Positions 10,456 to 33,280 of a stretch of DNA of 64,000 bases are shown here, piece after piece. Source of the stretch: Paracoccaceae bacterium. Lineage in GTDB: Bacteria > Pseudomonadota > Alphaproteobacteria > Rhodobacterales > Rhodobacteraceae. The notes under the pieces were generated by a model. That model made no database searches, was not told the DNA's origin, and was given only the letters and a program-made list of their open reading frames with translations. The position numbers and the translations under genes were made by a program. How positions within the stretch are numbered: position 1 is the first letter of the stretch; each line of letters starts with the position of its first letter. The DNA is taken from NCBI GenBank assembly GCA_018222585.1, contig JAAFAB010000006.1, positions 62,001-126,000 on the forward strand, given 5' to 3'.

Positions 10456-10469
10456 CCGCCTTTCATGCG

Positions 10470-11375
10470 CTATTCCCCGGGGGGCTGCCAGAGCGGATGC
10501 GGCACCGGGTCCTTGGCGCGCCCGAGATAGCGCCGGAAGACCTCGCCGTAGCTGGCGTAGCGGTAACCTTCGTTGCGGCGCAGGTAATGTTCCTTCCGCT
10601 TCGCGTAGAGTGCCGGCAGATCGTACCAGGGACGGTTGGGGTGCATGTGGTGCACTACATGGAAATTGTTGTTGAGGAAGAGCAGTGCCAGGGGGCCGCG
10701 ATCCTCGATGATCACCGTGCGGGCACGGGCCTTCTCATGGGCCTGGTGTTCCAGGAAGGTGCGGATCTTGAGCAGCGAATGCGACAGGTAGGTGCCCAGC
10801 ACGAAGGCCCAGAGCGGCATCGTTGCGACCGCGCTCAGCCACCAGATGACCAGCGCCAGCGCCGGAACGTGCCAGAGCCAGCCGCGCAGCACCGCCGGGT
10901 CGCGCAGGGCCAGCTGCGCCTCCAGCGCGATGAAGCCCGCATTGCCGATCAGCGGCCCCAGAAGGATCCGCCCCAGAAGCGTATTGTTGAGCCGCAGCAA
11001 CACCTTGCGCCAGCTCGGCAGGCGCTCCCAGACGGCGGGATCCAGGAAGTTCGTCTCGGGGTCGTCATAGGGATCGGTGAGGATCTCGTCGTGATGATGG
11101 GCCAGGTGGGTGGCGGCGAACCGCAGGTAGGGCACGGTGATCGAGAGCGCCGGAAAGACCAGCGCGGCGTTCAGCAGGCGGTTGCGGAAGGGATGGCCAT
11201 GGATCACCTCGTGGCTGAGCGAGGCATGGAGCCCCGCCGTGACCGCAAGCAGCGCGATCGCCGGCGCCAGCGCGACCTCGGCCAGCCAGGTGGTCGCCAG
11301 GATCCAGCCGGAATAGCAGAGCACGAGCAGGCCCAGGGTGGGCCATTCCACGGGCCGCGCGCCACGCTCAGACAT
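10470..11375 (-). CDS. Membrane fatty acid desaturase
   Basis: A 301-residue di-iron membrane desaturase. The three histidine boxes are present in order: HEVIHGH (about residues 55-61), HLAHHHDE (about 89-96) and HVVHHMHP (about 241-248), separated by hydrophobic pairs of helices. The enzyme would insert a double bond into, or hydroxylate, a membrane lipid or carotenoid-type substrate; which one is not readable. Its start overlaps the end of the DUF2061 gene by 8 bp, so the two are translationally coupled. Confidence 0.88.
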   Translation of the reverse strand: MSERGARPVEWPTLGLLVLCYSGWILATTWLAEVALAPAIALLAVTAGLHASLSHEVIHGHPFRNRLLNAALVFPALSITVPYLRFAATHLAHHHDEILTDPYDDPETNFLDPAVWERLPSWRKVLLRLNNTLLGRILLGPLIGNAGFIALEAQLALRDPAVLRGWLWHVPALALVIWWLSAVATMPLWAFVLGTYLSHSLLKIRTFLEHQAHEKARARTVIIEDRGPLALLFLNNNFHVVHHMHPNRPWYDLPALYAKRKEHYLRRNEGYRYASYGEVFRRYLGRAKDPVPHPLWQPPGE

Positions 11376-11574
11376 CGCGGCGTCCCCAGCTTATCCGGGC
11401 CCAGAGGCGTTCGTAGAGGACATAGCTGACGAGGCCCAGGGTCGCATTGATTAACGCCATCAGCCCGCCGGTGGTGACCGACCCGGTGAAGGCGAGGCCG
11501 ACCAGGCTCATCGTGACCAGACCGATCAGCGTCCAGAGAAGGCCCTTGAGCAGGCTGCGTGTCGTCGTTTCCAT
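11368..11574 (-). CDS. DUF2061 family small membrane protein
   Basis: A 68-residue protein starting METTTRSLLKGLLW, with two hydrophobic helices (about 12-30 and 35-55) around the TGS..GGLMALINA block of DUF2061. The family is often found with sulfate or lipid genes and has no proven function. An ATG 18 bp upstream is possible, but GAAGGGG fits 11574 as start. It is the first gene of a coupled unit with the desaturase. Confidence 0.82.
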   Translation of the reverse strand: METTTRSLLKGLLWTLIGLVTMSLVGLAFTGSVTTGGLMALINATLGLVSYVLYERLWARISWGRRDV

Positions 11575-12528: not shown

Positions 12529-12630
12529 GGCCCGGAGCGTGATCCGCCCTGCATCAAGCATATGAAATCTATGTTGACTTCCCCTCAGAGGCTTCCGGCA
12601 CAAGGCTGATGGAACGGACACGCCCAACCG

Positions 12631-12661
12631 GCCCCTGCCCGCCCGGGCCCGCGGCAGGGGC
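12631..12661. terminator. Probable bidirectional stem-loop between convergent genes
   Basis: GCCCCTGCC (12631-12639) and GGCAGGGGC (12653-12661) form a perfect 9-bp stem with a 13-nt loop, between the convergent regulator and aldo/keto reductase genes. There is no clear T-run, so termination efficiency is uncertain. Confidence 0.5.
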
Positions 12662-12669
12662 GCACGACC

Positions 12670-13713
12670 TCAATATGGCATCGGGTGCGCCTTGTAGACC
12701 GCATCGAGGTCCTGCAGCACCTCCTCGGACAGCTCGAGGTCGAGGCCATCGAGGATTCGGCCGAGCTGTTCCATGTCGGTGGCGCCGAAGATCACCGAAG
12801 CGGTGAATGGGCGTTGCGCCACCCAGGCCAGGCACATTGAGACCGTGTCGAGATCATGCTTGAAGGCCACGTCGATGTAATCGTCGATGGCCGCGAAAGC
12901 CCGCTTGGTGGCGCGCCCGCCCAGGTCCGGGTTCAGCGTGATGCGCGAGCCCTTGGGTCGCGCCCGCCCCTGGTACTTGCCCGTCAGCAGACCGGCGGCG
13001 AGGGGCGAATAGGCCATGAGGCCCACGCCCTCCAACAGGCAGAGCTCAGCGAGGTCGGTGTCGAAGTAGCGGCAGAGCAGCGAATACTCGTTCTGGATCG
13101 TCACCGGGCGCAACACGTCCTCTCCGGCCAGGCGCAGGTACTGCGCCATGCCCCAGGCGGTTTCATTGCTGAGACCGAAGGCGCGGATCGTGCCGCGCTT
13201 GCGCTCTTTCTCCAGGGCCTCCAGGCACGCGTGCAGATTGTCCAGGATGGCGTTCCGGTCCATGCCGGAGGGGTCGTAGCCCCAGACCTTGCGAAAGTGG
13301 TAGGAGCCGCGATTGGGCCAGTGGAACTGGTAGAGGTCGATGTAATCGGTCTTGAGCCGCCGCAACGAGCCTTCCACCGCCTCGTTGATGGTGGCGGGGG
13401 TGATCGGCGCGCCTTCGCGGATCATCTTCTGTCCCTCGCCGGCGTGCTTGGTGGCAATCACCACCTCCGACCGATGGCCGCGGCTCTTTTCCAGCCAGAG
13501 GCCGATGATGCGTTCGGTGCGCCCCACGGTTTCCTCGCGCACGGGGTTCACCGGATAGACCTCTGCGGTGTCGATGAAGTTCACGCCACGAGCCAGGGCG
13601 GCGTCGATCTGCTGGTGCGCGTCCTTGCTGCGGGTCTGATTGCCCCAGGTCATCGACCCGAGGCAGTAGTTCGACACCTCGATCCCCGTGCGACCAAGTT
13701 CTACCTTACGCAT
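12670..13713 (-). CDS. Aldo/keto reductase
   Basis: A 347-residue NADPH-dependent aldo/keto reductase of the Tas/YghZ-like group. The catalytic tetrad is visible: Asp and Tyr in FIDTAEVYP (about residues 47-55), Lys in VIATKHAG (about 88) and His in LYQFHWPNRG (about 130). The coenzyme-binding end includes VIFGATDMEQL. Length matches Tas. Its substrate is likely an aldehyde or ketone, not defined. Convergent with the XRE-type regulator. Confidence 0.9.
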   Translation of the reverse strand: MRKVELGRTGIEVSNYCLGSMTWGNQTRSKDAHQQIDAALARGVNFIDTAEVYPVNPVREETVGRTERIIGLWLEKSRGHRSEVVIATKHAGEGQKMIREGAPITPATINEAVEGSLRRLKTDYIDLYQFHWPNRGSYHFRKVWGYDPSGMDRNAILDNLHACLEALEKERKRGTIRAFGLSNETAWGMAQYLRLAGEDVLRPVTIQNEYSLLCRYFDTDLAELCLLEGVGLMAYSPLAAGLLTGKYQGRARPKGSRITLNPDLGGRATKRAFAAIDDYIDVAFKHDLDTVSMCLAWVAQRPFTASVIFGATDMEQLGRILDGLDLELSEEVLQDLDAVYKAHPMPY

Positions 13714-13891
13714 GTCCGTCCGTTCCCAGCTTTCTGTCAGTCCTAGAGCCAGAAGGTTACGAATTTCCTGCGGGTTGCAAGGTCATTTCCCGCAATTGCA
13801 CCTTTCGCGAAACCGAGAGGCAAGGGCAGAAAACGCCCCCTGATGTCGCCGGCGGGCTGGCATTGTCCGCCCCGAGGCGCGAGGAAGGGGG

Positions 13892-15112
13892 ATGCGATTT
13901 GTCCTCAGCCTCTCGGCGCTCTTCCTGTCGGTCATCCTTCTGCAACTCTCCTCCGGCGGGGTCGGCCCGCTGGATGCGCTCTCGGGCCTGGAGCTGGGGT
14001 TCACCCGGGGAGAGATCGGCATGTTGGGCTCGGCCCATTTCGTCGGCTTCTTCATCGGGTGCTGGGGCGCGCCGCGCCTGCTGGGACGGGTCGGCCATGC
14101 CCGCGCCTTCGCCGCCTTCACCGCGCTCGGCTCGATCGGGCTGATGGGACACATGATGCTGGTCGATCCCTGGGCCTGGGCGGCGATGCGTGTCGCCTCG
14201 GGGATCTGCATCGCCGGCTGCTACACGGTGATCGAGGGCTGGCTGATGGCCCGCATCGAGGACCGCGACCGTGGCCGCGCCATCGGCCTCTACCGTATCG
14301 CCGACATGTCGGCCTCGCTGGGTGCCCAGCTGATGATCGGCGTGCTGGCCCCGGCCGCCTATGCCTCCTACAACGTGCTGGCGATCCTGTGCTGCGCCGC
14401 GCTGCTGCCGCTGGCGCTCAGCAAGGCGGCCCAGCCGACGATGTCCGAGGCCCCCCGGCTGCGCCCGCTGCTGGCCTGGCAACGCTCGCCGCTGGCGGCT
14501 TTCGCGGTGGTGGTCTCGGCGCTGTCGGCGGCGACCTTCCGCATGATCGGCCCGCTCTATGGCCAGGAGATCGGCCTGAACACGACACAGATCGCCTGGT
14601 TCCTGGCGCTCTTCGTACTGGGCGGGGCGCTGGCGCAGTACCCGACCGGCTGGCTGGCGGACAAGTACGACCGGCGCCGCGTGCTGGTCGGGATCTCGCT
14701 GGCCGCCATGGCCTCGTGCCTGTTCTCGGCGCTGACCATCACCGGGCCGCAGGCGGCGATGGTCAACGGCTTCTTCTTCGGCCTGGCCACCTACCCGGTC
14801 TATTCCGTCGCCCTCGCCCATGCCCATGACTTCGCCGAAAGCCATGAACGGGCCGAGCTGTCGGCGGCGCTGCTCTTCTCCTATGCGCTCGGCGCGATCT
14901 CGGCGCCCTGGCTGGCCTCGCAACTGATCGGGCTGTTCGGCCCGGCCTCGATCTACGGCATGGTCGCGGCGGGCCATGCGGCGCTGCTGGTCTTCGGCCT
15001 GCTGCGGATGCGGGCGCGCCCGGTGCCCGAGGCACGCACCCAATACATCTATGCGCCGCGCACCACCTTCCTGATCGGGCGCCTGCTGCGCGGGCTGCGC
15101 GAAAGGTCCTGA
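13892..15112 (+). CDS. MFS transporter, YcaD-like
   Basis: A 406-residue major facilitator with twelve predicted helices. It has the MFS loop 2-3 in variant form ([15 protein letters not shown]), a [11 protein letters not shown] segment and the loop 8-9 sequence [13 protein letters not shown]. The spacing and the VIEGWLM block resemble YcaD-type carriers. A GGAAGGGGG sequence lies before the ATG. Substrate unknown; it may be an efflux carrier. It stands alone. Confidence 0.85.
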
Positions 15113-18026: not shown

Positions 18027-19502
18027 TCAACCCAGCCCGGCCAGCAACCGCACGCAGAGGAAGACCAGGGCCGAGATCCCCCCGGCGCAGGGCAAGGTCA
18101 CCAGCCAGGCGCCGAGGATGGTCATGAAGTGCGAGCGCCGCACCAGGCGGCGGCGGCGGCGCTCCTGCACGGGGAAGCGACGCGACGGGTCGGCGTTGCG
18201 CGGCTGGGTGAACCATTCGCGGTAGAAGCCGACGCCGAAGATGCCGCCGATGGCGATATGGGTCGAGCTGACCGGCAGCCCGAAGGCCGAGGCGAGGATC
18301 ACCGTCATCGCCGCCGACAGCGCCACGCAGAAGGCGCGGGCGGGGTTCAGGCGGGTGATCTCCTGCCCCACCATGCGGATCAGGCGCGGCCCGAAGAGCA
18401 TCAGGCCGACCGAGATGCCCGCCGCGCCGATGGCCAGCACCCAGAGCGGCAGGGGCACGAACTCGGACGGCGCGCCGGACCGCTGCCATTCGACCAGCGC
18501 CGCCAGCGGCCCGACCGCATTGGCCACGTCGTTGGCGCCATGGGCGAAGGAGAGCAGCGCCGCCGAGATCACCAGCGGCAGGCGGAACAGCACCTTCATC
18601 GAGGCGCGTCGGTTCTCCAGCCCCGCCGCCTGGCGGCGCACGGCGGGGATCGACAGCCGCCAGGCCAGCCCGCCGAGGCCGAGGCCGGTGAGGGTGATCA
18701 GCCAGGGCGCCGCCGGGCCGAGATGCAGCGGCAGCTTGAGCATCAGGTAGGCGGCGAAGGCGCCGGCCATCAGGCCGATCAGCCGCGGCAGCCAGATCCG
18801 CGCCGCCGCGACCTTGTCGTCACGCTCGAGGATGCGCCAGGTGACGAAGGACAGCAGCCCGCCGGCGACCAGCGCCCCGAGCAGCGGCGACAGCACCCAG
18901 CCAGCGGCGACCAGCCCCAGGGTCGGCCAGCTCATCGCGCCGAGGCCCTTGGCGGCGGCCACCGCGCCGATCATGCCGCCGATCACCGCCTGGGTGGTCG
19001 AGACCGGCGCCCCGATCCAGGTGGCGACATTGACCCAAAGCGCGGCCCCCAGCAGGGCCGAGATCATCGCCGGCGCGAAGGCGGGCGAGGCCGAGACCAC
19101 GTCGAAATCGAGGATGCCGCGCGACAGGGTATCGACCACCTCGTGCCCGGCCAGCAGCGCGCCGGCGCATTCGCAGACCACGGCCAGGGTGATCGCGCCT
19201 GCCATCGGGAGGGCGCCCGCCCCCACGGCGGGCCCCATGTTGTTGGCGACATCGTTGGCGCCGATGTTCAGCGCCATGTAGGCCGCCAGCGCCGAAGCGG
19301 CGACAATCACCGCCGTGCCCGGCTCGCGCCCCGTCACCAGCAGCGTGACCAGCATCGAAAGCACGATGAAGGCCAGCGAGATCCCCACCCCAAGCAGCGG
19401 TCGCGACAGGTGGATCGCTCCGGCTTCAAGCACGGAGACCCGTTCGAGATCCCGATCCAGGCTGCGCCATTCCCCGGTGCCGCGCCGCCCGGGTCCCTTC
19501 AT
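18027..19502 (-). CDS. pit: Inorganic phosphate transporter, PiT family
   Basis: A 491-residue membrane protein with the two PiT signature regions: GANDVANNMGPAVGAGA in the first half (about residues 81-97) and HGANDVANAVGPLAALV in the second (about 330-346), each typical of the duplicated PHO4 domain, with about eleven helices. It takes up inorganic phosphate by cation symport. A hydrophilic N-terminal tail of 35 residues precedes helix 1. Its start overlaps the upstream Nudix gene by 4 bp (ATGA), so translation is coupled. Confidence 0.92.
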   Translation of the reverse strand: MKGPGRRGTGEWRSLDRDLERVSVLEAGAIHLSRPLLGVGISLAFIVLSMLVTLLVTGREPGTAVIVAASALAAYMALNIGANDVANNMGPAVGAGALPMAGAITLAVVCECAGALLAGHEVVDTLSRGILDFDVVSASPAFAPAMISALLGAALWVNVATWIGAPVSTTQAVIGGMIGAVAAAKGLGAMSWPTLGLVAAGWVLSPLLGALVAGGLLSFVTWRILERDDKVAAARIWLPRLIGLMAGAFAAYLMLKLPLHLGPAAPWLITLTGLGLGGLAWRLSIPAVRRQAAGLENRRASMKVLFRLPLVISAALLSFAHGANDVANAVGPLAALVEWQRSGAPSEFVPLPLWVLAIGAAGISVGLMLFGPRLIRMVGQEITRLNPARAFCVALSAAMTVILASAFGLPVSSTHIAIGGIFGVGFYREWFTQPRNADPSRRFPVQERRRRRLVRRSHFMTILGAWLVTLPCAGGISALVFLCVRLLAGLG

Positions 19503-19963
19503 CGCGCGCCTCCCCTGGCGAAGGTCGAGAGCAGCGCCGAAAGCTCTTCCTCGTCCACCGCCTCGGCGGCTTCGGCAGGGGTCATCCATTGACGCTTGCG
19601 TTGCCCCTTCTCGGGGTAGTCGTCCAGCAGCCCCGAGACCGGAATGGCGAAGACCTCGACCCGGGTCGGCACCGGCAGGCCGCCATCGAGGCGCTTGTGG
19701 TAGTGGTAGCGTCCGACGAGGGCGGGCGTGCCGCAGGGCTTGATGCCGGCCTCTTCCCAGGCTTCCTCCAGCGCGGTGCCGCCGGCGTCATGGCCGCGCT
19801 TGGGCCAGCCCTTCGGCAGGACCCAGCGTCCGGTGTCGCGGGAGGTGATGAGGAGAATGCGCAGCCCCTGCCCCTTGCCACGGTGGCACAGTGCCGCGAC
19901 CTGGTAGCGTGCGGGCCGCGCCAGCAGCGGCAGCAGGAGGGAATTCCAGATTTGCCTCAACAT
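19499..19963 (-). CDS. Nudix hydrolase, DIPP-like
   Basis: A 154-residue Nudix protein. The segment ITSRDTGRWVLPKGWPKRG followed by ALEEAWEEAGI matches the diphosphoinositol polyphosphate / diadenosine polyphosphate hydrolase group (WxLPKGG.. then the Nudix helix). An HYHKRL segment follows. The reaction likely splits phosphoanhydrides in dinucleoside polyphosphates or related compounds. It is translationally coupled (4-bp overlap) to the phosphate transporter, a hint that it acts in phosphate metabolism. Confidence 0.87.
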   Translation of the reverse strand: MLRQIWNSLLLPLLARPARYQVAALCHRGKGQGLRILLITSRDTGRWVLPKGWPKRGHDAGGTALEEAWEEAGIKPCGTPALVGRYHYHKRLDGGLPVPTRVEVFAIPVSGLLDDYPEKGQRKRQWMTPAEAAEAVDEEELSALLSTFARGGAR

Positions 19964-20166: not shown

Positions 20167-21174
<1,008 letters not shown>

Positions 21175-21422: not shown

Positions 21423-21438
21423 TTGCACACGAGTGCAA
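21423..21438. promoter_or_regulatory. LacI-type operator in front of the ABC/phosphodiesterase operon
   Basis: TTGCACAC followed by GAGTGCAA is a 16-bp pseudo-palindrome with the central CG step usual for LacI-family operators; the half-sites differ at one position only. It lies 38 bp before the solute-binding-protein start codon, where a bound repressor would block transcription. The matching regulator is presumably the LacI-family gene at 27645. Binding is inferred. Confidence 0.65.
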
Positions 21439-21475: not shown

Positions 21476-22831
21476 ATGACCATCCTTTCCCACACCAAGC
21501 GCCTGACCCTCGCGGCGGCCCTTCTGGGCAGCACCGCGGCGGCTGGCATTGCCGAAGACGTCACCATCACCGTCTGGTCCGGCGGCACCGGCGACAGCGC
21601 CAACTACCGCATCGACAACATCAAGCTGGCCGCCGAGCAGCTGTCGCGTGAAGCGGCGATCCGCGGCGACGAGCTGAACATCACCATCGAGGGCCAGGGC
21701 TGGTCCGGCTGGGACGAGTTCAAGCAGGCCGTCACCCTGGCCGCCGAATCCGGCGATGCGCCGGACATCATCGTCTCGGGCCATGAGGACCTCGGTCCCT
21801 GGAGCCAGGCCGGTATCCTGCGCCCGGTCGAGGACTGGGTCTACCTGGACCAGTGGCCGCTGAACGACATCTATCCGAACCTCATCGACGTGGCGACCTA
21901 CAACGGCGTCGTCTGGGGCATCCCCCAGGACGCCGAGGCGCGGGTGATGTACTGGAACCGCGGCGCACTGGAGGCGATCGGCTGGTCCGATGCCGATATC
22001 GAGGCCCTGCCGCAGCGCGTCATCGACGGTGACTACACGCTCTACAACATGCTGGACGACCTGGCCGCCATGCAGGAGGCCGATGCCGTCGCCCCGGGCC
22101 AGGGCTTCATGCCGCGCCCCTCGAACGGCCCTGACTACTGGCAGTTCTACCAGTCCTTCGGCGGCGAGATGCTTGATGCCGAAACCGGCAAGCTGCTGCT
22201 GGATACCGAGGCGCTGACCGGCTTCTACCAGTTCTTCGTCGATGCCGTGGCCCGGGGCGTCGTGCCCGAAAGCTACCTGGGCGCCAACTGGGATGACTGG
22301 CACCGCGCCGTTTCCGGCCTGACAGCCGGGGCCTGGCACGGCGGATCCTGGCACTATGCCCAGTGGACCCGCAGCTTCGAGATGGAGAACTTCTTCGACA
22401 ACGTGCAGTTCACCCTGATCCCCGCCGGTGACGAGAACGGCCGCGCCAACTCGATTACGCACCCGCTGGTCTACCTGATGGGCGCCGGCAATACCGAGGA
22501 CGAGGCCCAGATCGCCGCCGACCTGATCTCGATCGCCTCAGAGCCGCGCCTGAACGCCATGCACGCCGTCAAGTCCGGCCACCTGGCAATCAGCGAGGCC
22601 GAGGTCTCGGTGCCGCTCTATGCCGAAGACCGCTGGCTGAGCGAAGCCTCCGAGGGCTTCCTGCCTTACGTCAACGCGATCCCCAACGATGCCGACTTCG
22701 GCACCTACTGGACCGCGATGTACAAGGGCCTGGAAAACGCCTGGACCGGCACGATGTCCGTCGAGGAGGCTGTCGAGACCGTCAAGGCCGACGTGACCTC
22801 GGCGCTTGGCGACAAGATCATCGTCAAATGA
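21476..22831 (+). CDS. ABC transporter periplasmic solute-binding protein, carbohydrate-type (family 1)
   Basis: A 451-residue exported binding protein with a signal peptide (residues 1-26, ending TAAAGIAED). After it come TITVWSGG and the DAPDIIVSGHEDLGPWSQAGIL segment typical of sugar and glycerol-3-phosphate binding proteins such as MalE and UgpB. It would capture the substrate in the periplasm and hand it to the two permeases encoded next. It is the first gene of a seven-gene run in which every junction overlaps or is 4 nt or shorter. The downstream phosphodiesterase and phosphatase suggest a phosphodiester or a polyol/sugar substrate. Confidence 0.88.
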   Translation: MTILSHTKRLTLAAALLGSTAAAGIAEDVTITVWSGGTGDSANYRIDNIKLAAEQLSREAAIRGDELNITIEGQGWSGWDEFKQAVTLAAESGDAPDIIVSGHEDLGPWSQAGILRPVEDWVYLDQWPLNDIYPNLIDVATYNGVVWGIPQDAEARVMYWNRGALEAIGWSDADIEALPQRVIDGDYTLYNMLDDLAAMQEADAVAPGQGFMPRPSNGPDYWQFYQSFGGEMLDAETGKLLLDTEALTGFYQFFVDAVARGVVPESYLGANWDDWHRAVSGLTAGAWHGGSWHYAQWTRSFEMENFFDNVQFTLIPAGDENGRANSITHPLVYLMGAGNTEDEAQIAADLISIASEPRLNAMHAVKSGHLAISEAEVSVPLYAEDRWLSEASEGFLPYVNAIPNDADFGTYWTAMYKGLENAWTGTMSVEEAVETVKADVTSALGDKIIVK

Positions 22832-24252
22832 ACATGCGCGCCCTGACTGACGGGGCGCGTGAGGGGACCGCGATCGCGGTCCCCTCCACTCCCGTCCCGC
22901 CCGCCGTCACCCTGCCCCCGCGCCGCCGCGGCAAACCCCGCGGCAAGCCCCGCGTCAGCCTGCTGGGCCTTGCCATGCTGGCACCCTCGCTGCTGCTGCT
23001 CTGCGCCTTCTTCTTCGCCCCGGCGATCTTCACCGGGGTCTTCGCCTTCACCAACATGTCCACCTCGACCGGCATCGGGAAGGGTGACTGGATGGTCACC
23101 CCCGTTCTGCTGCGCCAGCTGCGCGACGCGGGCCTGAGCGAGGCCGACGAACAGGCGATCTCTGCCGCCACCTATGTCGTGGATGCCGAACATGTCGCCC
23201 GCGCCGAGGCCGGCGGCGTCGATGCGCGCTTCCTGTCGGACATCGAGAGCCGCCTCGCGGGCGAGACCTACGACAATGCGCGCGACTTCGAGCGCGACCT
23301 TCGGGACCTGCCTTCGAAACCGCGTTCCGCCCGGGCCCTGAAGGGCGCCGCCGACCATTTCGCCAGCTCGGTGCTGAATCGCCGCTACGCGACCGAAGCC
23401 GCCTTCGCCGCCGCCCTGTCCACCGTCGCCCCCGGCCTCGCGCCCGAGACGCTGAGCCTGGTGACCGAGCGCGCCTATACCGGTGCCGTCTTCACGGTCG
23501 AGAACTTCGTCACCCTCGCCACCCGACGCGACACGCTGCGCATCGTCGGCAATACCTTCCTCTATGTCGGGCTGACCCTCGGCTTCAACGTCGCCATCGG
23601 CCTGTTCCTGGCGCTGAGCACCTTCTACCTGCCCAAGCGCGTCGGCTCGGTCTTCTCGGCGCTCTGGCTGCTGCCGCGCATCACGCCGGTCGTGCTCTAC
23701 GCGACGCTCTGGCAATGGTTCACCTGGGAAAACGGCTTCATCTACATCCTCGCCGATACCCTCGGGCTGCCGACCTACAACTACATGAAGGCCGGTGTCA
23801 CCTCGGCCTGGACGATCATGATCCTGTCCAACGGCTTCGTCGGGGCCTCCTTCGGGATGATCCTCTTCTCGGGCGCCCTGCGCGCGATCCCGGTGCAACA
23901 GCTCTGGGCCTCGGAGGTCGACGGCGCCTCGCGGCTGCAGCAGATCCGCCGCATCATCCTGCCGCAACTGCGCTGGCCCGTGCTCTTCGTCACCGCCTAC
24001 CAGACGCTGTCGCTGCTGTCCTCCTACGAACTGATCTGGCTGACCACCGATGGCGGCCCCGGTACCACGACGACGGTCTGGGCGCTGGACGCTTTCAAGA
24101 CCGCCCTCTGGGCCTATTCAGGGGAATTCAAGTACGGCCTCGGCGCGGCCATGGCGCTGATCCTGGTGGTGGTCGGGCTGACCCTGTCGATCGCCTACCT
24201 GATCCTGTTCAAGTTCGACGACCTCGTGAGCCGTCCCAAGATCGAGTTCTGA
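22828..24252 (+). CDS. ABC transporter permease 1 with large MalF-like insert
   Basis: A 474-residue inner-membrane permease, far longer than the usual 290. A basic Pro-rich N-terminal tail (1-42) is followed by helix 1 (about 45-72), then some 135 extra residues (about 84-218, charged and helical) before VFTVENFVTL, where the standard permease resumes, then five more helices. The EAA loop is EVDGASRLQQIRRIILPQL (about 370). The insert sits where E. coli MalF carries its P2 periplasmic domain that touches the binding protein. It overlaps the binding-protein gene by 4 bp (ATGA). Confidence 0.9.
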   Translation: MNMRALTDGAREGTAIAVPSTPVPPAVTLPPRRRGKPRGKPRVSLLGLAMLAPSLLLLCAFFFAPAIFTGVFAFTNMSTSTGIGKGDWMVTPVLLRQLRDAGLSEADEQAISAATYVVDAEHVARAEAGGVDARFLSDIESRLAGETYDNARDFERDLRDLPSKPRSARALKGAADHFASSVLNRRYATEAAFAAALSTVAPGLAPETLSLVTERAYTGAVFTVENFVTLATRRDTLRIVGNTFLYVGLTLGFNVAIGLFLALSTFYLPKRVGSVFSALWLLPRITPVVLYATLWQWFTWENGFIYILADTLGLPTYNYMKAGVTSAWTIMILSNGFVGASFGMILFSGALRAIPVQQLWASEVDGASRLQQIRRIILPQLRWPVLFVTAYQTLSLLSSYELIWLTTDGGPGTTTTVWALDAFKTALWAYSGEFKYGLGAAMALILVVVGLTLSIAYLILFKFDDLVSRPKIEF

Positions 24253-24255
24253 GCC

Positions 24256-25095
24256 ATGCAACATTCCTCCATGACCCGCAATTTCTCGATGATCCCGGTG
24301 CTGGCGGTGCTCGGCCTGGTCACCCTGCCGCTGGTCGTCATGTACGCCTTCCTGGTGATCGACAGTTTCAGCAATGCCCCCGCGACCTCGCTGATCCCCT
24401 CCGAGTTCACGCTGGAGCACTGGCGCTTCCTCTACGACTTCTCCCTTGTCGGCAACGTCTGGATCGCCACCAAGAATTCGCTGATCTTGGCCTTCACCAT
24501 GGTCGTGACGACGCTGGTGCTGTCCTCGACCGGCGGCTACGCCATGTCGCGGCTGAACCTGCCCTTCCGGCGCTTCTTCCTGGCCTCGGTTCTGGTCATG
24601 CACGCCTTCCCGGCGGTGACCCTGCTGATCGGCACCTTCCTGGTGCTGAACTTCACCGGGCTCTACAACTCGATGATCGGGGTGATCCTGGTCAAGGGCA
24701 CGCTGATGCTGCCCTTCGGCATCTGGATCATGAAGGGCTTCTACGATGCCGTCCCGTGGGAAATCGAGATGGCCGGCGTGCAGGATGGCGCCTCGCGCTT
24801 CACCGTCTGGCGCCGCCTCGTGCTGCCGCAGGTCAAACCGGGTCTCGTCGCCCTTGGCGTCTTCGCCTTCCTCGATGGCTGGGGCGAATACCTGCTGCCC
24901 CGCATCCTCGCCCCCGGCGCCGACTTCGAGGTGCTCTCGGTCTTCCTGCAGGATGCCGCGATCCCCGATGCGGCGGACTACAATTTCAACATCTTCAAGT
25001 CGGTGGGCATCTTCTACACCCTGCCCGTACTGATCCTCTTCGTGGTCTTCCAGAACCGGCTCATGAACATCTTCGGCGGAGGCACGAAAGGCTGA
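24256..25095 (+). CDS. ABC transporter permease 2 (MalG/UgpE-like)
   Basis: A 279-residue permease with six membrane helices. The EAA loop reads EIEMAGVQDGASRFTVWRR (about 172-190), the contact site for the ATPase. It ends with a long final helix typical of MalG-type proteins. Three bases separate it from permease 1, and its TGA overlaps the ATPase ATG by one base, so all are one transcription unit. Confidence 0.92.
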   Translation: MQHSSMTRNFSMIPVLAVLGLVTLPLVVMYAFLVIDSFSNAPATSLIPSEFTLEHWRFLYDFSLVGNVWIATKNSLILAFTMVVTTLVLSSTGGYAMSRLNLPFRRFFLASVLVMHAFPAVTLLIGTFLVLNFTGLYNSMIGVILVKGTLMLPFGIWIMKGFYDAVPWEIEMAGVQDGASRFTVWRRLVLPQVKPGLVALGVFAFLDGWGEYLLPRILAPGADFEVLSVFLQDAAIPDAADYNFNIFKSVGIFYTLPVLILFVVFQNRLMNIFGGGTKG

Positions 25096-26150
25096 TGCAA
25101 CTTACCCTCGACAAATTCACCAAGAGCTTCGGCGACACCGAGGTGATCGCCGACATGGACCTGACCGTGCGCGACGGCGAGATGCTGGCCCTGCTCGGCC
25201 CCTCGGGCTGCGGCAAGTCCACGACGCTGTTCGCCATCGCGGGCATCCACCGGGTCTCGGGCGGGCGCATCCTGTTCGGCGACCGTGACGTTTCGGACCT
25301 GCCCAGCCAGAAGCGCAACGTCGGCGTCGTCTTCCAGAACTACGCCCTCTACCCCCACATGTCCGTGGCCGAGAACATCGCCTTCCCGCTGGAAGTCGCC
25401 GGCCAGGACCGCGCCACGATCAAGCGCGAGGTGCAGGCCATCGCCGAGCTCGTCCATATCGAGAAGCTGCTGAACCGCAAACCGGCGGAGCTGTCCGGCG
25501 GCCAGCAGCAGCGCGTCGCCCTGGCCCGCGCCATCGTGCGCAAGCCCGCCGTGCTGCTGCTGGATGAACCTCTCGCCAACCTCGACGCCAAGCTGCGCCT
25601 TGAAATGCGGTCCGAGATCCGCCGCATCCAGCAGGAGACCGGCATCACCGCCATCCTCGTCACCCACGACCAGGTCGAGGCCATGTCGATGTGCGACCGC
25701 GTTGCCATCATGAACGAGGGCGAGATCCTGCAGATCGACAGCCCGACCGAGATGTACCGCGCGCCGGTGTCGCGCTTCGTCGCCGGCTTCCTCGGCAATC
25801 CGCCCATCACCTTCGTCGAGGGCGTGACCGACGGGCGCGGCGATGTCGACCTCTCGGGCCTGAAACTGCCTCTGCCCGCACGGCTGGAGGCCCTGCCGGC
25901 CGGTCGCGCCGTCACCCTCGGCATCCGCCCCGAACACTTCGGCGTCGCCCGGGGCCTGCCGGTGCCCGGCGTGGTGCGTTTCGTCGAACCCCAGGGGCGC
26001 GAGACCCTCTTTGACGTGGCGCTGGACAATGGCGCGGTGCTGCGCTCGATCCAGCCGGTGCGGCAGGATCTGTCGGTGGGCGATGCGGTCCGCTTCAACC
26101 TCGACACCGAGGCCATGCTGGTCTTCGCCGAGACCGGAGCACGCCTGTGA
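25095..26150 (+). CDS. ABC transporter ATP-binding protein (UgpC/MalK family)
   Basis: A 351-residue ATPase with Walker A GPSGCGKST (about 35-43), Q-loop in VVFQNYALYPHMSV, signature LSGGQQQR (about 133-140), Walker B VLLLDEPLANLDAKLR and the switch His in LVTHDQVEAM. The C-terminal 110 residues form the TOBE-type regulatory domain of CUT1 importers (GIRPEHFG). It powers the importer encoded upstream. A longer open frame reads through from within permease 1, but the ATG at 25095 gives the standard N terminus. Confidence 0.95.
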   Translation: MQLTLDKFTKSFGDTEVIADMDLTVRDGEMLALLGPSGCGKSTTLFAIAGIHRVSGGRILFGDRDVSDLPSQKRNVGVVFQNYALYPHMSVAENIAFPLEVAGQDRATIKREVQAIAELVHIEKLLNRKPAELSGGQQQRVALARAIVRKPAVLLLDEPLANLDAKLRLEMRSEIRRIQQETGITAILVTHDQVEAMSMCDRVAIMNEGEILQIDSPTEMYRAPVSRFVAGFLGNPPITFVEGVTDGRGDVDLSGLKLPLPARLEALPAGRAVTLGIRPEHFGVARGLPVPGVVRFVEPQGRETLFDVALDNGAVLRSIQPVRQDLSVGDAVRFNLDTEAMLVFAETGARL

Positions 26151-27643
26151 TCGACGCCATGATCCCGCGCCATCAGCCGATGATCCCCTTCCCGAAGCCC
26201 CATGGCCGCCCCGCCTGCATTGCCCACCGTGGTGCGCAGGCCCATGCGACCCAGAACACCCTGCGCGCCTATGAGATCGCCGCCGACCTCGGCGCCGACA
26301 TGTGGGAGATCGACCTTCGGCTGACCGCCGACGGGGTGCCGGTCTCCTGCCATGATGCCTCGACCGCAGAGGTCTTCGGCCCTGCCCTTCAGATCAGCGA
26401 AACCCCCTTCGCCGATCTGCGCGCCGCCGTGCCCCTCGTGCCGTCGCTTGCCGAGATCCTGACGCTGGCGAAGGCCCGCGACTGCGGTCTCTATATCGAG
26501 CTGAAGGCACCGGGGGCCGGCCCCGCGGCCCTGCCGCTCCTGCAGGGCTTCGGGGCCGCGGCGCTTGGGTCCTTCGACAGCGCTCTGGTGCGCGAGGTGA
26601 TCGAGGCCGGCTGCGACTGGCCGGTCTCGGTGCTGGTACGGATCGGGGAAGACCCGCTGGCGCGCGCGGCGGAAAGTGGCGCCGATACGGTGCACCTGTG
26701 CTGGGAACGCGCCGGCGAGCGTCCGCAGGATCTGGTGACGCCCGAGCTGCTGGCACGGCTCGGTGCCCGCGACCTCGGCCTTGTCCTGTGGCACGAGGAA
26801 CGCCCCTCGGTGCTGGCCGATCTCGAAAAGCTCCCAGCCCTCGGTATCTGCACCGACCAGCCCGAGCTGATGCGCGGCCGCCGCCCCGGTGAGTTCCCCG
26901 AGGTGCAATTCGTCTGTCATCGCGGCATGAACCACATTGCCCCCGAGAACACCCACGCCGCCGCGCTGCTGGCCTATGACATGGGCTGCGACTGGCTGGA
27001 ACTGGACGTCCACGAAACCACCGATGGCGAGATCGTCGTCCATCACGACCAGACCGTCGACCGCTGTTCGGACGGCACCGGCGCCATCGCCGGGATGACC
27101 CTGGCCGAGCTGAAGGCACTGGATATCGGCAGCTGGAAGGATCCGCATTTCTCCGGTCAGCGCATCCAGACCCTGCGCGAGGCGATCACCCTCTGCCAGT
27201 CCCTCGGCAAGCGGATGTATATCGAGAACAAGTTCGCCAGCGTGGAAAAGGTCTGGGCACTGGTCTGCGAGATGGGCTTCCAGCGCGACTGTTTCTTCTG
27301 GTGCTGGAACATGGACTGGATGAAGGCCCTGCGCGCCCTTGCCCCCGAGGCGCTGATCAAGTCCAACATCTCGCGCCACGCCTCCGTCGACCAGATGATC
27401 GAGGAAATCGCCCCGCAGATCTGCGAGATCATGCTGCAGGACTGGGACCGCGAGGCCCCGCTGTGCCGGGCGCGCGGGATCATCCCGATGCTGCAATACT
27501 TCGGCGCCCCCGATCCGGCGGTCTTCGACCGCATCGCCGCGCTGCGCCCCGAGATGATCAACCTTGACCGCGCCGACCTGCTTCTGGAAGCTCTGCGCAG
27601 GCAGGGACAGGCAGAGGGGCATTTCCCCTCGGAAGTGGCGTGA
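26147..27643 (+). CDS. Glycerophosphodiester phosphodiesterase with two tandem GDPD domains
   Basis: A 498-residue cytoplasmic protein (no signal peptide) with two GDPD TIM-barrel units. Unit 1 (about 20-245): AHRGAQAHATQNT, WEIDLRLT, DGVPVSCHD. Unit 2 (about 252-495): CHRGMNHIAPENT, LELDVHETTDG, VVHHD, then YIENK. Both keep the two catalytic His residues. Unit 1 has TQNT instead of PENT, losing the metal-binding Glu, so unit 2 is probably the active one. It would split an imported glycerophosphodiester or sugar phosphodiester. A GTG start overlaps the ATPase gene by 4 bp; internal ATGs at codons 5 and 12 are alternatives. Compare UgpQ in the ugp operon. Confidence 0.88.
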   Translation: MIDAMIPRHQPMIPFPKPHGRPACIAHRGAQAHATQNTLRAYEIAADLGADMWEIDLRLTADGVPVSCHDASTAEVFGPALQISETPFADLRAAVPLVPSLAEILTLAKARDCGLYIELKAPGAGPAALPLLQGFGAAALGSFDSALVREVIEAGCDWPVSVLVRIGEDPLARAAESGADTVHLCWERAGERPQDLVTPELLARLGARDLGLVLWHEERPSVLADLEKLPALGICTDQPELMRGRRPGEFPEVQFVCHRGMNHIAPENTHAAALLAYDMGCDWLELDVHETTDGEIVVHHDQTVDRCSDGTGAIAGMTLAELKALDIGSWKDPHFSGQRIQTLREAITLCQSLGKRMYIENKFASVEKVWALVCEMGFQRDCFFWCWNMDWMKALRALAPEALIKSNISRHASVDQMIEEIAPQICEIMLQDWDREAPLCRARGIIPMLQYFGAPDPAVFDRIAALRPEMINLDRADLLLEALRRQGQAEGHFPSEVA

Positions 27644-27644
27644 G

Positions 27645-28661
27645 ATGAGCGCAGAGAAACCGCGCGGCGCGGTGACCGCCAGCGACGTGGCCCAGCTGGC
27701 CGGCGTGTCGCGCTCGGCCGTGTCGCGCACCTTCACCGAGGGCGCCTCGGTCGCGCCGGAAACCCGCGAACGTGTCATGCAGGCGGCGCGCGACCTGGGC
27801 TATCGTGTCAACTTCCTGGCCCGCAGCCTGAAAGAACAGCGCACCCGGCTGATCGGCCTCGTCGTCTCGGACATGGACCACTCGCTGCGCGCCCATCTGG
27901 TCGACAGCCTCGGGCGGGCGCTAGTTGCGGCGGACTACCGGCCCTTCCTGCTGCCCACCTCGCGCGGCGAGGACACCCGGCGCGCCATCGACATGATGCT
28001 TCACTACAATGTCTCGGGCGCCATCGTGACGTCGGATGCCTCGCCGCAGGCGATCGCCGCCGAATGCGCCCGCCATGACGTGCCGCTGGTGCTGGTCAAC
28101 AAGGCCGAGATGGGCGGGCGGGTCGCCAATGTGACCCAGGACACCGAGGCCGCGGGGCGCCTCGCCGCCGAGGCCCTGGCCGAGGCCGGCTGCCGCCGCG
28201 TGGTGCTGGCCCGACAGCGCCTGCCCTCCTACACCATCGACCTGCGCTGCGATGCCTTCGCGGCCCATCTGCCCCGGCTTGGGCTGAAGCTGGTCGCCAC
28301 CGTCGAGGGCGAGGCGCAGAACTATGCCGGCGGCCAGGAGGCCGGTGCCGCCTTCCTGGCGCGGCGCCCCGAGGCCGATGGCGTCTACTGCGCCAACGAC
28401 TTCCTGGCCCTCGGCTTCATGGACCACCTGCGCCGGCGCGGTGTCTCGATCCCCGACGAGCTGGCCATCGTCGGCTGCGACGACATTGCCGAGGCGGGCT
28501 GGGACGCCTACGATCTGACCACCGTCCGCCAGCCGGTCGAGGCGCTGACCCAGGCCACCCTGCAGGCCCTGCTGACCTGCATCGCCGACCGCAACGCCCG
28601 CCCGGGCCTCACCACCATCGGCGTCGACCTCGTGCGCCGCAACTCGACTGCAAGATCCTGA
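27645..28661 (+). CDS. LacI-family transcriptional regulator
   Basis: A 338-residue repressor. The N-terminal helix-turn-helix and hinge helix are VTASDVAQLAGVSRSAVSRTF (10-30) and VNFLARSLKEQRTR (about 55-68), followed by a periplasmic-binding-protein-like effector domain (IGLVVSDMD, ending YDLTTVRQPVEAL). The likely operator is the TTGCAC../GTGCAA dyad at 21423. It starts one base after the GDPD stop and sits inside the operon it probably controls. The effector is likely the imported compound or a breakdown product. Confidence 0.92.
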   Translation: MSAEKPRGAVTASDVAQLAGVSRSAVSRTFTEGASVAPETRERVMQAARDLGYRVNFLARSLKEQRTRLIGLVVSDMDHSLRAHLVDSLGRALVAADYRPFLLPTSRGEDTRRAIDMMLHYNVSGAIVTSDASPQAIAAECARHDVPLVLVNKAEMGGRVANVTQDTEAAGRLAAEALAEAGCRRVVLARQRLPSYTIDLRCDAFAAHLPRLGLKLVATVEGEAQNYAGGQEAGAAFLARRPEADGVYCANDFLALGFMDHLRRRGVSIPDELAIVGCDDIAEAGWDAYDLTTVRQPVEALTQATLQALLTCIADRNARPGLTTIGVDLVRRNSTARS

Positions 28662-28665
28662 CCCC

Positions 28666-29466
28666 ATGACCGACCAAGACCAAGCCGCGCGCCTTGACTG
28701 CGCGCGCCTCGCCATCGCCCGCGCCGCCGACCTGGCTCTGGAGCATTTCCACAACCTCGGCGCCCTCGCCATCGAGACCAAGACCGGCCCCGGCGATCCC
28801 GTCAGCCAGGCCGACCGCGGCGTCGAGGACCTGCTGCGCCACGAGATCGCCTCGGCCTTCCCCGAGGATTCCATCCTCGGCGAGGAGCGCGGGCTGGAAA
28901 GCGGCCCCTCGGGCTGGACCTGGGTCATCGACCCGATCGACGGTACCATGCCCTTCCTGCACGGCCTGCCCAGCTGGACCGTCGTGCTGTGCCTGCTGCA
29001 GGGTGATCGGACCGTCGCCGGGCTGATCGCCGAACCCTGCCGCGACCGTCTCTATCGCGCCGAAGCCGGCCGGGGCGCCTGGCTGGAAACCGCAGGCTGC
29101 GCGCCGCAACGCCTGACCGCCTCGCCCGCGACAGACCTGGCGGGCCAGGTCGTCGCCTGTGGCCCCGGCGCCAGGATCCATGCCGCCCGCATCGGCTCGG
29201 TGGTGACCCGGCTGACGGCCGCCGAGGCCAGCTTCATGCGCAACGGTTCCGCGGCGCTCTCCCTGGCGCTGGTGGCGGCGGGACATTACGCCGGCTTTCA
29301 CGAGCCAGAGCTTTCGGCCTGGGACTGCCTGGCCGGGCAGCTTCTGGTCCGCGAGGCCGGGGGCCGCACCAGCCCCTTCGACCTTGCCCATCCGACGCTG
29401 CGCCAGCCCGTGACCTGCACCGGCCCCGAGCTCTACGAGGCGCTCTCGGCGCTGGTCGCGGTCTGA
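28666..29466 (+). CDS. Inositol monophosphatase-family phosphatase
   Basis: A 266-residue Mg-dependent phosphatase of the IMPase/SuhB/CysQ family. Metal ligands are in ILGEERG, WVIDPIDGTMPF (motif A; the usual TNF is MPF) and SAWDCLAGQLLVREAGG (motif B). It would remove phosphate from a polyol or sugar phosphate. Four bases separate it from the LacI gene, so it is the last gene of the operon; a stem-loop at 29477 follows. In this context, the substrate is probably the monoester released by the GDPD protein, such as myo-inositol 1-phosphate or an aldose phosphate. Confidence 0.88.
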   Translation: MTDQDQAARLDCARLAIARAADLALEHFHNLGALAIETKTGPGDPVSQADRGVEDLLRHEIASAFPEDSILGEERGLESGPSGWTWVIDPIDGTMPFLHGLPSWTVVLCLLQGDRTVAGLIAEPCRDRLYRAEAGRGAWLETAGCAPQRLTASPATDLAGQVVACGPGARIHAARIGSVVTRLTAAEASFMRNGSAALSLALVAAGHYAGFHEPELSAWDCLAGQLLVREAGGRTSPFDLAHPTLRQPVTCTGPELYEALSALVAV

Positions 29467-29600: not shown

Positions 29601-30950
29601 ATGGGACTTTGGGGCGGAACCAAGGGTCAGACCCTCTCTGACAGCGAATCCGCTGTCCTGAAGATCGTCGAAGACACCCAGGCGGTGATCCATTTCGACC
29701 CGAACGGCATCATCCTGGAGGCCAACGGGAATTTTCTGGCGGCGCTGGAGTATTCGGCGCAGGAGGTCGTGGGCAAGCACCACTCGATCTTCGTCAGCCC
29801 GGAGTTTGCCGCCAGTGCCGAGTATCGCGGGCACTGGGACCGGCTGCGTGGCGGAGAGGCCCTGACAGACCAGTTTCCGCGCATCACCCGCAGCGGCAGG
29901 AAGATCTGGATCCAGGCGACCTATGCGCCGGTGCGCGATGCCCGGGGGCAGGTCATCCGCGTCACCAAGATCGCCACCGACGTGACGCGGCGGCGCGGCG
30001 CCATCGAACGCCTGTCACAGGGGCTGGAAAGCCTCAGCCACGGCAATCTCACCGACCGCGTGCCGAAAACCGGTATCCGCGACCTCGACGAGCTTTCCGA
30101 TGCCTTCAACCGCTCGATGGAAACCTTCAGCTCCACCATCGCCGAGGTGAAGGGCTTCGCCGCCGATTTCGAGACCGTCAGCCAGCATATCGGCAAGACC
30201 ACCGACGACCTGTCGCGCCGCACCGAAAGCCAGGCCGCGACTCTGGAACAGACCGCCGCCGCGATCGAGGAGCTGGATGCCAGCGCCCGTGTCTCGGCCA
30301 GCAACGTGCAGCGTGTCTCCCAGGCCGCCAGCGAAACCCGCAGCGCGGCAGAGACCAGCGGCGCGCTGGTGCAGGAGGTGACGCAGGCGATGGAGCAGAT
30401 CGAGAGTTCCTCGAAGGCCATCGCCGACATCCTCTCTGTGATCAATGACATCGCCTTCCAGACCAACCTGCTGGCACTCAACGCCGGGGTCGAGGCCGCG
30501 CGCGCGGGGGAAGCGGGATACGGCTTTGCGGTGGTCGCTTCGGAGGTCCGTTCGCTGGCCAGCCGCACCGCGGATTCGGCGCGCGAGATCCGGGTGCTGA
30601 TCGACGAGAGCTCGACCTATGTCTCCAATGGCTCGACCCTGGTGGCGCGCACCAGCAGCGAGCTTAACGGCATCTTCACCCGCGTCGACGCGGTGAACGA
30701 CCTGGTCAAGGAAGTGGCCCAGACCATAGAACAGCAATCCACCACCATCGGAGAGATCAACAGCGCGGTGACCAACCTGGACCAGGTGACGCAACGCAAT
30801 GCCGCCATGGCGATCGAGACCGCCGAAGCCTCGCGCAGCCTGTCGCAAAAGAGCGCGGCGCTCGGCGACAGGACCGCCAGCTTCCAGATCGCCGGCGGCG
30901 GGGCGGGCTGGTCGCCCGGTCCCCGGGACGAGAGCCGCCGCGCGTCCTGA
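29601..30950 (+). CDS. Soluble methyl-accepting chemotaxis protein with PAS sensor
   Basis: A 449-residue cytoplasmic chemoreceptor without membrane segments. A PAS domain covers about residues 18-130 ([34 protein letters not shown]), a HAMP-like linker about 135-185 ([20 protein letters not shown]), and the signalling hairpin carries the conserved tip [21 protein letters not shown] (about 285-306), with Gly instead of the more usual Ala after LALN. It would couple an intracellular redox or ligand signal to CheA/CheW. The end lacks a CheR-binding pentapeptide. It is monocistronic. Confidence 0.92.
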
Positions 30951-31146: not shown

Positions 31147-31233
31147 TGGTACGGGCGACGGGACTCGAACCCGTAAGCCATTAAAGGCGCAAGATTTTAA
31201 GTCTCGTGCGTCTACCAGTTCCGCCACGCCCGC
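31147..31233 (-). tRNA. tRNA-Leu (anticodon UAA)
   Basis: An 87-nt tRNA with encoded 3' CCA. The acceptor arms GCGGGCG and CGCCCGT pair (first pair G-U), the T arm contains GGTTCGAGTCC, and the anticodon stem CGAGA/TCTTG encloses loop CTTAAAA with anticodon TAA at 31197-31199. The long variable arm (TGCGCCTTTAATGGCTTA) marks it as class II, leucine type. Reads UUA, and UUG by wobble. Confidence 0.97.
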
Positions 31234-32346: not shown

Positions 32347-33135
32347 TTACCTGTCGCGGATGATCTTCGAGAACTTCTCGAACAGCGGTTCGTTGGCGCA
32401 GATCACCGCGCCATCGGAGAGGATGTCGCCCTCGGGGTTCACCGGCTCGACGAAGCCACCGGCCTCGCGCAGGATCACCAGGCCCGCGGCCAGGTCCCAG
32501 GGCTTCAGGCCGCGTTCCCAGTAGCCGTCGTAGCGACCTGCAGCCACATAGGCCAGGTCCAGCGACGCCGCCCCCCAGCGACGCACCCCGGCGCAGGCCG
32601 GCATCAGCCGTGCCAGGTCCTGCAGGGTCGCCGGCAGGTGGCGCGAAGTGGCGAAGGGCACGCCGGTGGCGAAGACCGCCTCGATCATCCGCATCCGGCC
32701 CGAGCAGCGGATCCGCATGTCGTTCATCCAGGCGCCCTCGCCCTTCTCGGCCATGAACATCTCGTCCTTGGCGGCGTCGTAGATGACCCCGGCGACGATC
32801 TGGCCCTTGTGTTCCAGCGCGATGGAGATCGCCCAATGCGGCATCCCGTGCAGGAAGTTGGTGGTGCCGTCCAGCGGATCGACGATCCAGCGCCGGGTCG
32901 GATCCTCGCCCTCTTCCTCGCCGCCCTCTTCGGCCAGCCAGCCGTAGTTGGGGCGCGCACCCATCAGCTCTTCCTTCAGGATCGCCTCGGCGGCGATATC
33001 CGCGCGGCTGACGAAATCCCCCGCGCCCTTGACCGAGACCTGCAGGTTCTCGACCTCGCGGAAATCCTTCACGAGGGACCGGCCGGCCTTGCGGGCGGCT
33101 TTCATCATGATGTTGAGATTGGCGCTGAAGGACAT
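32347..33135 (-). CDS. suhB: Inositol monophosphatase (SuhB-like)
   Basis: A 262-residue IMPase-family enzyme with full metal-binding motifs: WLAEEGG (Glu pair), RRWIVDPLDGTTNFLHG (motif A) and LKPWDLAAGLVILREAGG (motif B). It hydrolyses myo-inositol phosphates and, as SuhB, may also act in RNA processing. It is a canonical copy, in contrast to the divergent IMPase-like gene in the ABC operon. The ATG at 33135 (MSFSANLNIMMKAARKAGR) is the normal family start; the frame is open 39 codons further upstream. Confidence 0.93.
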   Translation of the reverse strand: MSFSANLNIMMKAARKAGRSLVKDFREVENLQVSVKGAGDFVSRADIAAEAILKEELMGARPNYGWLAEEGGEEEGEDPTRRWIVDPLDGTTNFLHGMPHWAISIALEHKGQIVAGVIYDAAKDEMFMAEKGEGAWMNDMRIRCSGRMRMIEAVFATGVPFATSRHLPATLQDLARLMPACAGVRRWGAASLDLAYVAAGRYDGYWERGLKPWDLAAGLVILREAGGFVEPVNPEGDILSDGAVICANEPLFEKFSKIIRDR

Positions 33136-33280
33136 GGGGCTGGCTCCGTTGTACGAATGGCGCGTATAGACCTCCCCGCGCCCCTTGCCAAGGCCCTGCG
33201 GCCCTTGCAATTCAGGCAATTTTCCACGTGACGTCACGCGGTCGGCAGCCACCTCGGTGACCTGCCCCGGGGCGCGGCGC

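Follow-up and report, generated by a model that had tools for sequence, protein, structure and literature searches.

A conserved LacI-associated operon predicted to import and catabolise a phosphodiester, possibly of the inositol type

The seven genes at positions 21476-29466 (forward strand) of a 64,000-nt stretch of a Paracoccaceae bacterium genome (contig JAAFAB010000006.1, positions 62,001 to 126,000; hereafter the window) are read here as a LacI-controlled operon that catabolises a phosphodiester, most likely of the inositol type, with a probability of roughly 0.5. At the level of substrate class, the best reading, in which there is considerable confidence, is that a phosphodiester is taken up intact and then hydrolysed. 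The operon is real, conserved and apparently uncharacterised. In the proposed mechanism, a periplasmic substrate-binding protein (SBP) and a CUT1-type ABC importer would carry a small phosphodiester, still intact, into the cytoplasm, where a fused glycerophosphodiesterase (GDPD) would hydrolyse it, each of its two domains probably taking a different ester bond or isomer. An enzyme of the inositol monophosphatase (IMPase) fold would then strip the phosphate from the monoester, releasing polyols or sugars along with phosphate. The likeliest substrate class would be inositol phosphodiesters, for example glycerophosphoinositol, which is the head group left when phosphatidylinositol is deacylated.

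Gene content and conservation of the cassette

The genes were read from the sequence of the 5.15-Mb host genome and are joined, in order, by a 4-nt overlap, a 3-nt gap, a 1-nt overlap, a 4-nt overlap, a 1-nt gap and a 4-nt gap (Table 1). This reading, together with the Pfam families of the products, bears out the gene set, coordinates and tight spacing of the original prediction, as well as its operon architecture of seven same-strand genes with overlaps or gaps of at most 4 nt.

Relatives were collected by a GTDB scan with a five-row GDPD alignment, which gave 162 pattern matches, among them 139 relatives, of which 80 were analysed; the search seeds were two N-domain peptides of the GDPD, whose conservation is by construction. 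Synteny in these 80 loci (L numbers below) was judged by tblastn with the window proteins. All seven genes are found with order and strand unchanged in 64 of the 80, which argues that the gene content is not due to chance. The four transporter genes lie upstream and co-directional in 74 loci, LacI follows downstream in 75 and the IMPase gene in 65, and some gene losses reflect contig ends (L043, L052, L054, L056). A double GDPD is carried by five of 100 genomes, host included, at E values up to 1e-40. The transporter, GDPD and LacI genes are syntenic in G003, G039, G046 and G098, with the IMPase gene following in three; these four genomes recur among the 80 loci. Carriers comprise Roseobacters, Martelella, Pelagibacterium, Cohaesibacter, Vibrio, Photobacterium, Oceanospirillaceae, Granulosicoccus, Thalassospira, Rhizobium, Neorhizobium, Ensifer and Devosia. 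A search of annotated plasmids gave 133 records for the GDPD and 141 for the binding protein; Rhizobium accounts for 121 in each case. The neighbourhood survey thus found the cassette conserved in related genomes, and the rarity that had been supposed for this gene combination did not hold up, as it is widespread.

When flanking open reading frames (ORFs) were clustered, a generic ABC ATPase appeared in 42 loci and no other cluster in more than 14 of the 80, so that the cassette is largely self-contained. In the window, a PAS-HAMP-MCP chemoreceptor-like gene (29601-30950, forward strand) begins 134 bp after the operon; in L009, a very similar ORF (12617-13966) also follows the operon.

Table 1. 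Features of the operon and its upstream region, in window coordinates
Feature	Protein	Coordinates	Strand	Basis or remark
LacI-type operator palindrome TTGCACACGAGTGCAA, putative		21423..21438		starts 53 bp before first start codon
Periplasmic SBP, CUT1 type	P0001	21476..22831	+	Pfam SBP_bac_8/SBP_bac_1
Permease 1, MalF-like	P0002	22828..24252	+	Pfam BPD_transp_1 at residues 255-460
Permease 2, MalG-like	P0003	24256..25095	+	Pfam BPD_transp_1
Single ATPase, UgpC/MalK type	P0004	25095..26150	+	Pfam ABC_tran and TOBE_2; OB_MalK
Two-domain GDPD	P0005	26147..27643	+	GTG start; two Pfam GDPD stretches
LacI-family repressor	P0006	27645..28661	+	Pfam LacI and Peripla_BP_3
IMPase-fold phosphomonoesterase	P0007	28666..29466	+	Pfam Inositol_P

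Phosphodiesterase lineages and the importer

The GDPD has an N domain at about residues 20-247 and a C domain at about 253-490. Its AlphaFold model is confident across both, with a mean pLDDT (predicted local distance difference test) of 93.5 and a pTM (predicted template-modelling score) of 0.90, and the best structural match is 1zcc, from Agrobacterium. Residues were counted in 57 two-domain sequences, namely 56 loci and the window; L049 is included, where a stop lies inside the two-domain reading frame (10001-11410) and LacI and IMPase genes were not found downstream. In the C domain, H258, R259, E285, D287, H300, E360 and K362 are each kept in 57/57. In the N domain, the same holds for H27, E54, H69 and K120. 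R28 is kept in 56/57, and so is D56, with a gap in the remaining sequence; at position 118, 42 sequences have Asp and 15 have Glu. The His-Arg, Glu-x-Asp, His and Glu-x-Lys positions are those which we take to be the catalytic set, as in solved GDPDs. The residues expected of the GDPD family were found in both domains, and both are judged from the alignment to retain catalytic residues. Against the NCBIfam GDPD profile PRK09454, the protein scored 129.8 bits and did not reach the cut-off of 264.

Of the remaining 24 loci, 23 show a match to the N domain alone and one (L088) is partial; the N-domain-only loci belong to Rhizobium, Neorhizobium, Ensifer, Pseudorhizobium, Devosia, Aquamicrobium and other Rhizobiales. 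In a tree of 30 rows, the N domains of the window type group with single-domain GDPDs (support 100/99) and the C domains separate (96/95), lying nearer to the GDPD that occurs singly in a second importer clade (support 90/93, under the tool's star threshold); the Thermus GDPD and a second R. etli GDPD form long branches of unsure placement. The N type thus occurs alone in Rhizobium-type cassettes, a C-like domain occurs alone in the distant importer clade, and both are present in P0005. Because each lineage is found singly beside the same importer type, the double GDPD is, on the evidence of the sequences and their tree, a fusion of two separate lineages and not a recent internal duplication. 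This fusion suggests two cleavage specificities in one protein, and the two domains may cut opposite sides of the phosphate.

The second, distant importer clade adds a further type of enzyme. A close binding protein is encoded in 14 of 394 genomes of the host's family, and a distant one, scoring 230-255 bits, in nine others. In these nine, a GDPD lies in the operon in five (L128, L130, L132, L133, L135), and a homolog of the EEP fold follows the ATPase in six (L128, L132, L134, L135, L136; degraded in L133), four of which have a second EEP homolog (L132, L134, L135, L136). L131 has neither a GDPD nor an EEP homolog, and L129 ends at a contig edge. Loci L128, L132, L134, L135 and L136 look, in their own right, like another uncharacterised phosphodiester operon. 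The EEP assignment was checked with Pfam Exo_endo_phos on proteins of L128 and L052 and extended to the other distant-clade members by homology. The two-domain GDPD likewise has EEP homologs next to it in L052, where the EEP gene sits between ATPase and GDPD and puts the locus outside the distance limits, and in L064, where a diverged importer lies downstream of the GDPD and is followed by two EEP homologs. On two Sinorhizobium plasmids, GDPD genes flank a distant importer. What speaks most strongly for a phosphodiester as the molecule taken up is that importers of this type occur again and again with two unrelated folds of the phosphodiesterase type.

Membership in the Ugp, Mal and IMPase groups was decided by NCBIfam equivalog cut-offs, with matches considered at E up to 0.001. 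The best profile for permease 1 was MalF (44 bits, cut-off 392), permease 2 matched MalG at 87.7 bits (cut-off 261), and the ATPase matched UgpC best (373.1 of 432 bits), with MalK at 320.6 of 568. UgpA (31.3 of 335) and UgpE (43.1 of 297) were likewise below their cut-offs. The sole match of P0001 was MalE, at 42.8 of 291 bits; UgpB was absent from its NCBIfam matches, and none of the seven PDB sequences matched by its profile at E up to 1e-12 is named UgpB. As no Mal equivalog cut-off was reached by P0001-P0004, they are not assigned to MalEFGK2. At E up to 0.001, Pfam returned only SBP_bac_8 and SBP_bac_1 for P0001, which places it outside the AccA type, AccA being an oligopeptide-like binding protein. 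Going by profile scores, transporter, GDPD and phosphatase are members of the CUT1, GDPD and IMPase families, and not Ugp, Mal or inositol-1-monophosphatase as such. The closeness to Ugp assumed in the original prediction was not borne out, the permeases being nearer to MalF/MalG than to UgpA/UgpE.

Permease 1 has a long stretch between its first membrane segment and the transport domain, and its Thermus homolog aligns from residue 204 onward only. The AlphaFold model of the SBP (mean pLDDT 90.9) was compared by Foldseek, where maltose-type and dinucleotide-binding proteins were nearest, sulfoquinovosylglycerol-binding proteins ranked lower and other sugar binders also appeared; the scores were alike, and no ligand class was singled out. 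Permeases that score nearest to MalF/MalG and a binding-protein model nearest to maltose-type proteins would fit an importer of sugars or oligosaccharides, with the GDPD and IMPase genes serving other tasks, such as recycling of the cell's own lipids. Such an arrangement is, however, very unlikely, since a GDPD stays with the importer even in distant lineages, since this importer type is accompanied by GDPDs of two lineages and, in several cases, by EEP-fold homologs, and since no glycosidase was found by Pfam among the seven conserved genes.

Operator and regulation

The best-scoring palindrome of the region upstream of the operon, TTGCACACGAGTGCAA, is a putative operator of the LacI type. 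The consensus TTGCACACGTGTGCAA, at up to three mismatches, has a single match in the window, where shuffles give 0.18. A site within four mismatches of TTGCACACGTGTGCAA is present in 74 of 77 upstream regions, compared with 0.9% of shuffled regions, and within three mismatches in 65 of 77, compared with 0.06%. This consensus was derived from the same upstream regions; independent support comes from the pattern TGYACRCGNGTRCA, which occurs once in the 5.15-Mb host genome, at the operon. The cassette LacI (P0006) probably binds this predicted operator. Repression would act locally and be lifted by the substrate or one of its cleavage products; the LacI effector is inferred, as are the substrate class and the division of labour between the GDPD domains. 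A sigma-70-like promoter was not found for the operon, with 0.6 expected by chance.

A strict pattern, TTGCACRCGYGTGCAA, was found in 18 of the 394 family genomes. Ten of these have it in the interval that separates an iolG homolog from a divergent LacI gene, and all ten iol-type sites read TTGCACGCGCGTGCAA (L172, L173, L175, L177, L179-L181, L184-L186). The remaining sites lie before the cassette (two), by other ABC ATPase genes (four) or by neither (two). Loci with ABC ATPase genes near this kind of operator are L174, L182, L187 and L189, the last with a LacI gene alongside. The centre of the cassette operator reads ACACGTGT in 47 of 74 sites, one of the two strict cassette sites has the iol form, and the LacI of the iol promoters is 28-32% identical to the cassette LacI (four regions measured). 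A regulon shared with inositol genes through this operator was rejected because the centre differs in most cassettes and the iol promoters have their own LacI; the likeness to iolG promoters is treated as kinship of the repressors and not as proof of a shared regulon. The alpha-proteobacterial IolR motif, given as GGAA-N6-TTCC in the available part of PMC2597717, differs from both the cassette operator and TTGCACGCGCGTGCAA.

Regulation also bears on the possibility that the diester is mainly a phosphorus source, its organic parts being by-products. Such phosphate scavenging would fit a PHO4-family phosphate transporter gene about 1.9 kb upstream (18027-19589, reverse strand) and a host without the standard inositol route, but is at odds with the LacI gene in the operon and the conserved operator, and is considered unlikely. 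Repressor and operator together suggest control by the substrate, as in carbon catabolism.

Substrate class and biological meaning

As a working model, the agrocinopine acc operon of Agrobacterium comes closest. As outlined in the available part of PMC4526662, it comprises an importer for the intact phosphodiester, the phosphodiesterase AccF, AccG as a putative phosphatase, and AccR, a regulator that has the phosphomonoester product as its effector. The likeness to acc that had been proposed holds in its logic of import, phosphodiesterase and phosphatase, with a regulator also in common, AccF, AccG and AccR being compared by their description there. The importers differ, that of acc being AccA with AccBCDE according to the same part of PMC4526662 and that of the window a CUT1 type with one ATPase; the two-domain phosphodiesterase is also unlike the enzyme outlined for acc. 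With ugpBAEC-ugpQ, the operon shares a CUT1-type importer, its ATPase being nearest to UgpC by profile, and a GDPD; it departs from that system by the added LacI and IMPase genes, the doubled GDPD and scores below the Ugp cut-offs. R. etli p42b carries the same seven-gene order (RHE_RS22710 to RHE_RS22680), annotated by family only, with a GDPD that has the N-type domain only and another, distant GDPD gene convergent at the end. GpxB, from the available part of PMC12718374, was dropped as a comparison, being of the PhnT family, and the available part of PMC9246714 contains nothing on uptake.

An inositol phosphodiester is favoured on account of iol genes, which are found next to the cassette in Thalassobius and in Aquamicrobium and form one operon with its distant version in Thermus. 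In Thalassobius (L035), iolD, iolE and iolB are co-directional with the cassette, all exceed their NCBIfam cut-offs and stop about 340 bp short of the SBP gene. In Aquamicrobium (L091), an iolG over its cut-off lies about 1.3 kb upstream of the SBP gene, with a second Gfo/Idh/MocA dehydrogenase, not iolG, between them. Thermus thermophilus pAA2-2c (L093; one of four Thermus records was examined) carries distant importer homologs and a GDPD in the same order, directly preceded by genes annotated as iolD, a TIM barrel protein, iolC, an aldolase, iolG, 5-deoxy-glucuronate isomerase and DeoR. The DeoR gene overlaps the SBP gene, and the SBP-permeases-ATPase stretch ends with the GDPD, so that the cassette is continuous with the inositol catabolism genes. 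In NCBIfam, iolG of this plasmid is over its cut-off and iolB just under (197 of 205); no IMPase gene is annotated in the 19-kb stretch.

Several observations weigh against the proposed catabolism of an inositol diester. The Thermus version is distant, with an SBP 32% identical, a permease without the long stretch and a single GDPD, on a long branch, outside both window lineages. In the host genome, which is 99.93% complete, none of iolD, iolG and iolB was found at a score above its cut-off, the best scores being 182 of 715 bits for iolD and 79 of 355 for iolG; the host's IolB/KduI-family match was rejected as iolB, as it is KduI (396 bits, cut-off 250). With Thermus queries, 78 of the 80 loci showed no recognisable iol neighbours in the flanks covered, which reach no further than about 5 kb upstream of the SBP gene and about 8 kb downstream of the IMPase gene. 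No iol genes are annotated near the cassette in R. etli and Marinovum, and a candidate iolG in place of the IMPase gene in L039 was ruled out by NCBIfam (139 of 355 bits). The IMPase gene itself was not found downstream in 15 of the 80 loci, two of them truncated by contig ends. Co-occurrence, counted as presence at E up to 1e-100, placed IolD in 41 of 50 tested carriers and in 44 of 147 general relatives. Within the family, IolD was present in 11 of 14 carriers (SBP above 680 bits) and 199 of 380 others (p 0.06), the nine genomes at 230-255 bits being counted among the 380. Xylose isomerase, an unrelated control, gives a similar gap in the same family (12/14 and 229/380, p 0.09); the IolD signal is therefore not specific and was dropped as evidence. 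The inositol ester offered as an example in the original prediction consequently stands in part, supported by the genes that adjoin the cassette in L035, L091 and the distant Thermus version and weakened by the host and by the 78 loci.

The phosphatase P0007 scores 169 bits against a Pfam Inositol_P cut-off of 27, which assigns it to the inositol monophosphatase family. It stays below the NCBIfam cut-offs for inositol-1-monophosphatase (PRK10757; 121.5 of 332 bits) and HisN (157 of 275). E73, E74, D89, D92 and D220 are invariant in an alignment of four sequences and presumably bind metal. IMPase-fold enzymes act on many monoesters. Together with the lack of an iol route in the host, the 78 loci without iol neighbours and a binding-protein fold about equally like sugar, sulfoquinovosylglycerol and dinucleotide binders, this makes it a distinct possibility that the same mechanism handles a non-inositol diester (for example glycerophosphocholine, glycerophosphoglycerol, a glycosyl-glycerophosphate or a sugar-sugar phosphodiester), in which case glycerol phosphate or a sugar phosphate would be the substrate of the IMPase-fold enzyme. 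Such substrates would leave aside the iol genes found next to the cassette in two genera and in one operon with the Thermus version, and it is on these that the preference for an inositol phosphodiester is based.

A second IMPase-family gene, which may encode a housekeeping enzyme, lies about 2.9 kb downstream of the operon (32347-33252, reverse strand); in L009, an IMPase homolog is found about 4.9 kb downstream, in the same orientation. Other neighbours in the window, all on the reverse strand, are an L-lactate dehydrogenase gene over its NCBIfam cut-off (20167-21171), between the PHO4-family gene and the operon, a trimethylamine methyltransferase (MTTB) family gene (409-1998) and, downstream of the operon, tRNA-Leu(taa) (31147-31233).

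Phosphodiesters of deacylated membrane lipids are a source of organic phosphorus and carbon in sea and soil. In the titles and abstracts of the open-licence papers listed, neither the operon nor bacterial import of glycerophosphoinositol was found described, which is no proof of absence. It is tentatively proposed that the cassette represents a route, undescribed but widespread, by which bacteria use glycerophosphoinositol, or an inositol phosphodiester related to it, that comes from eukaryotic membranes. This route would combine a dedicated CUT1 importer, a bifunctional GDPD fused from two lineages that cut different sides of the phosphate and an IMPase, and would be used by marine, symbiotic and soil Proteobacteria, with a distant counterpart in Thermus. 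Conserved, self-contained and equipped with a repressor and an operator of its own, the operon offers a small set of proteins with a clear, testable phenotype.

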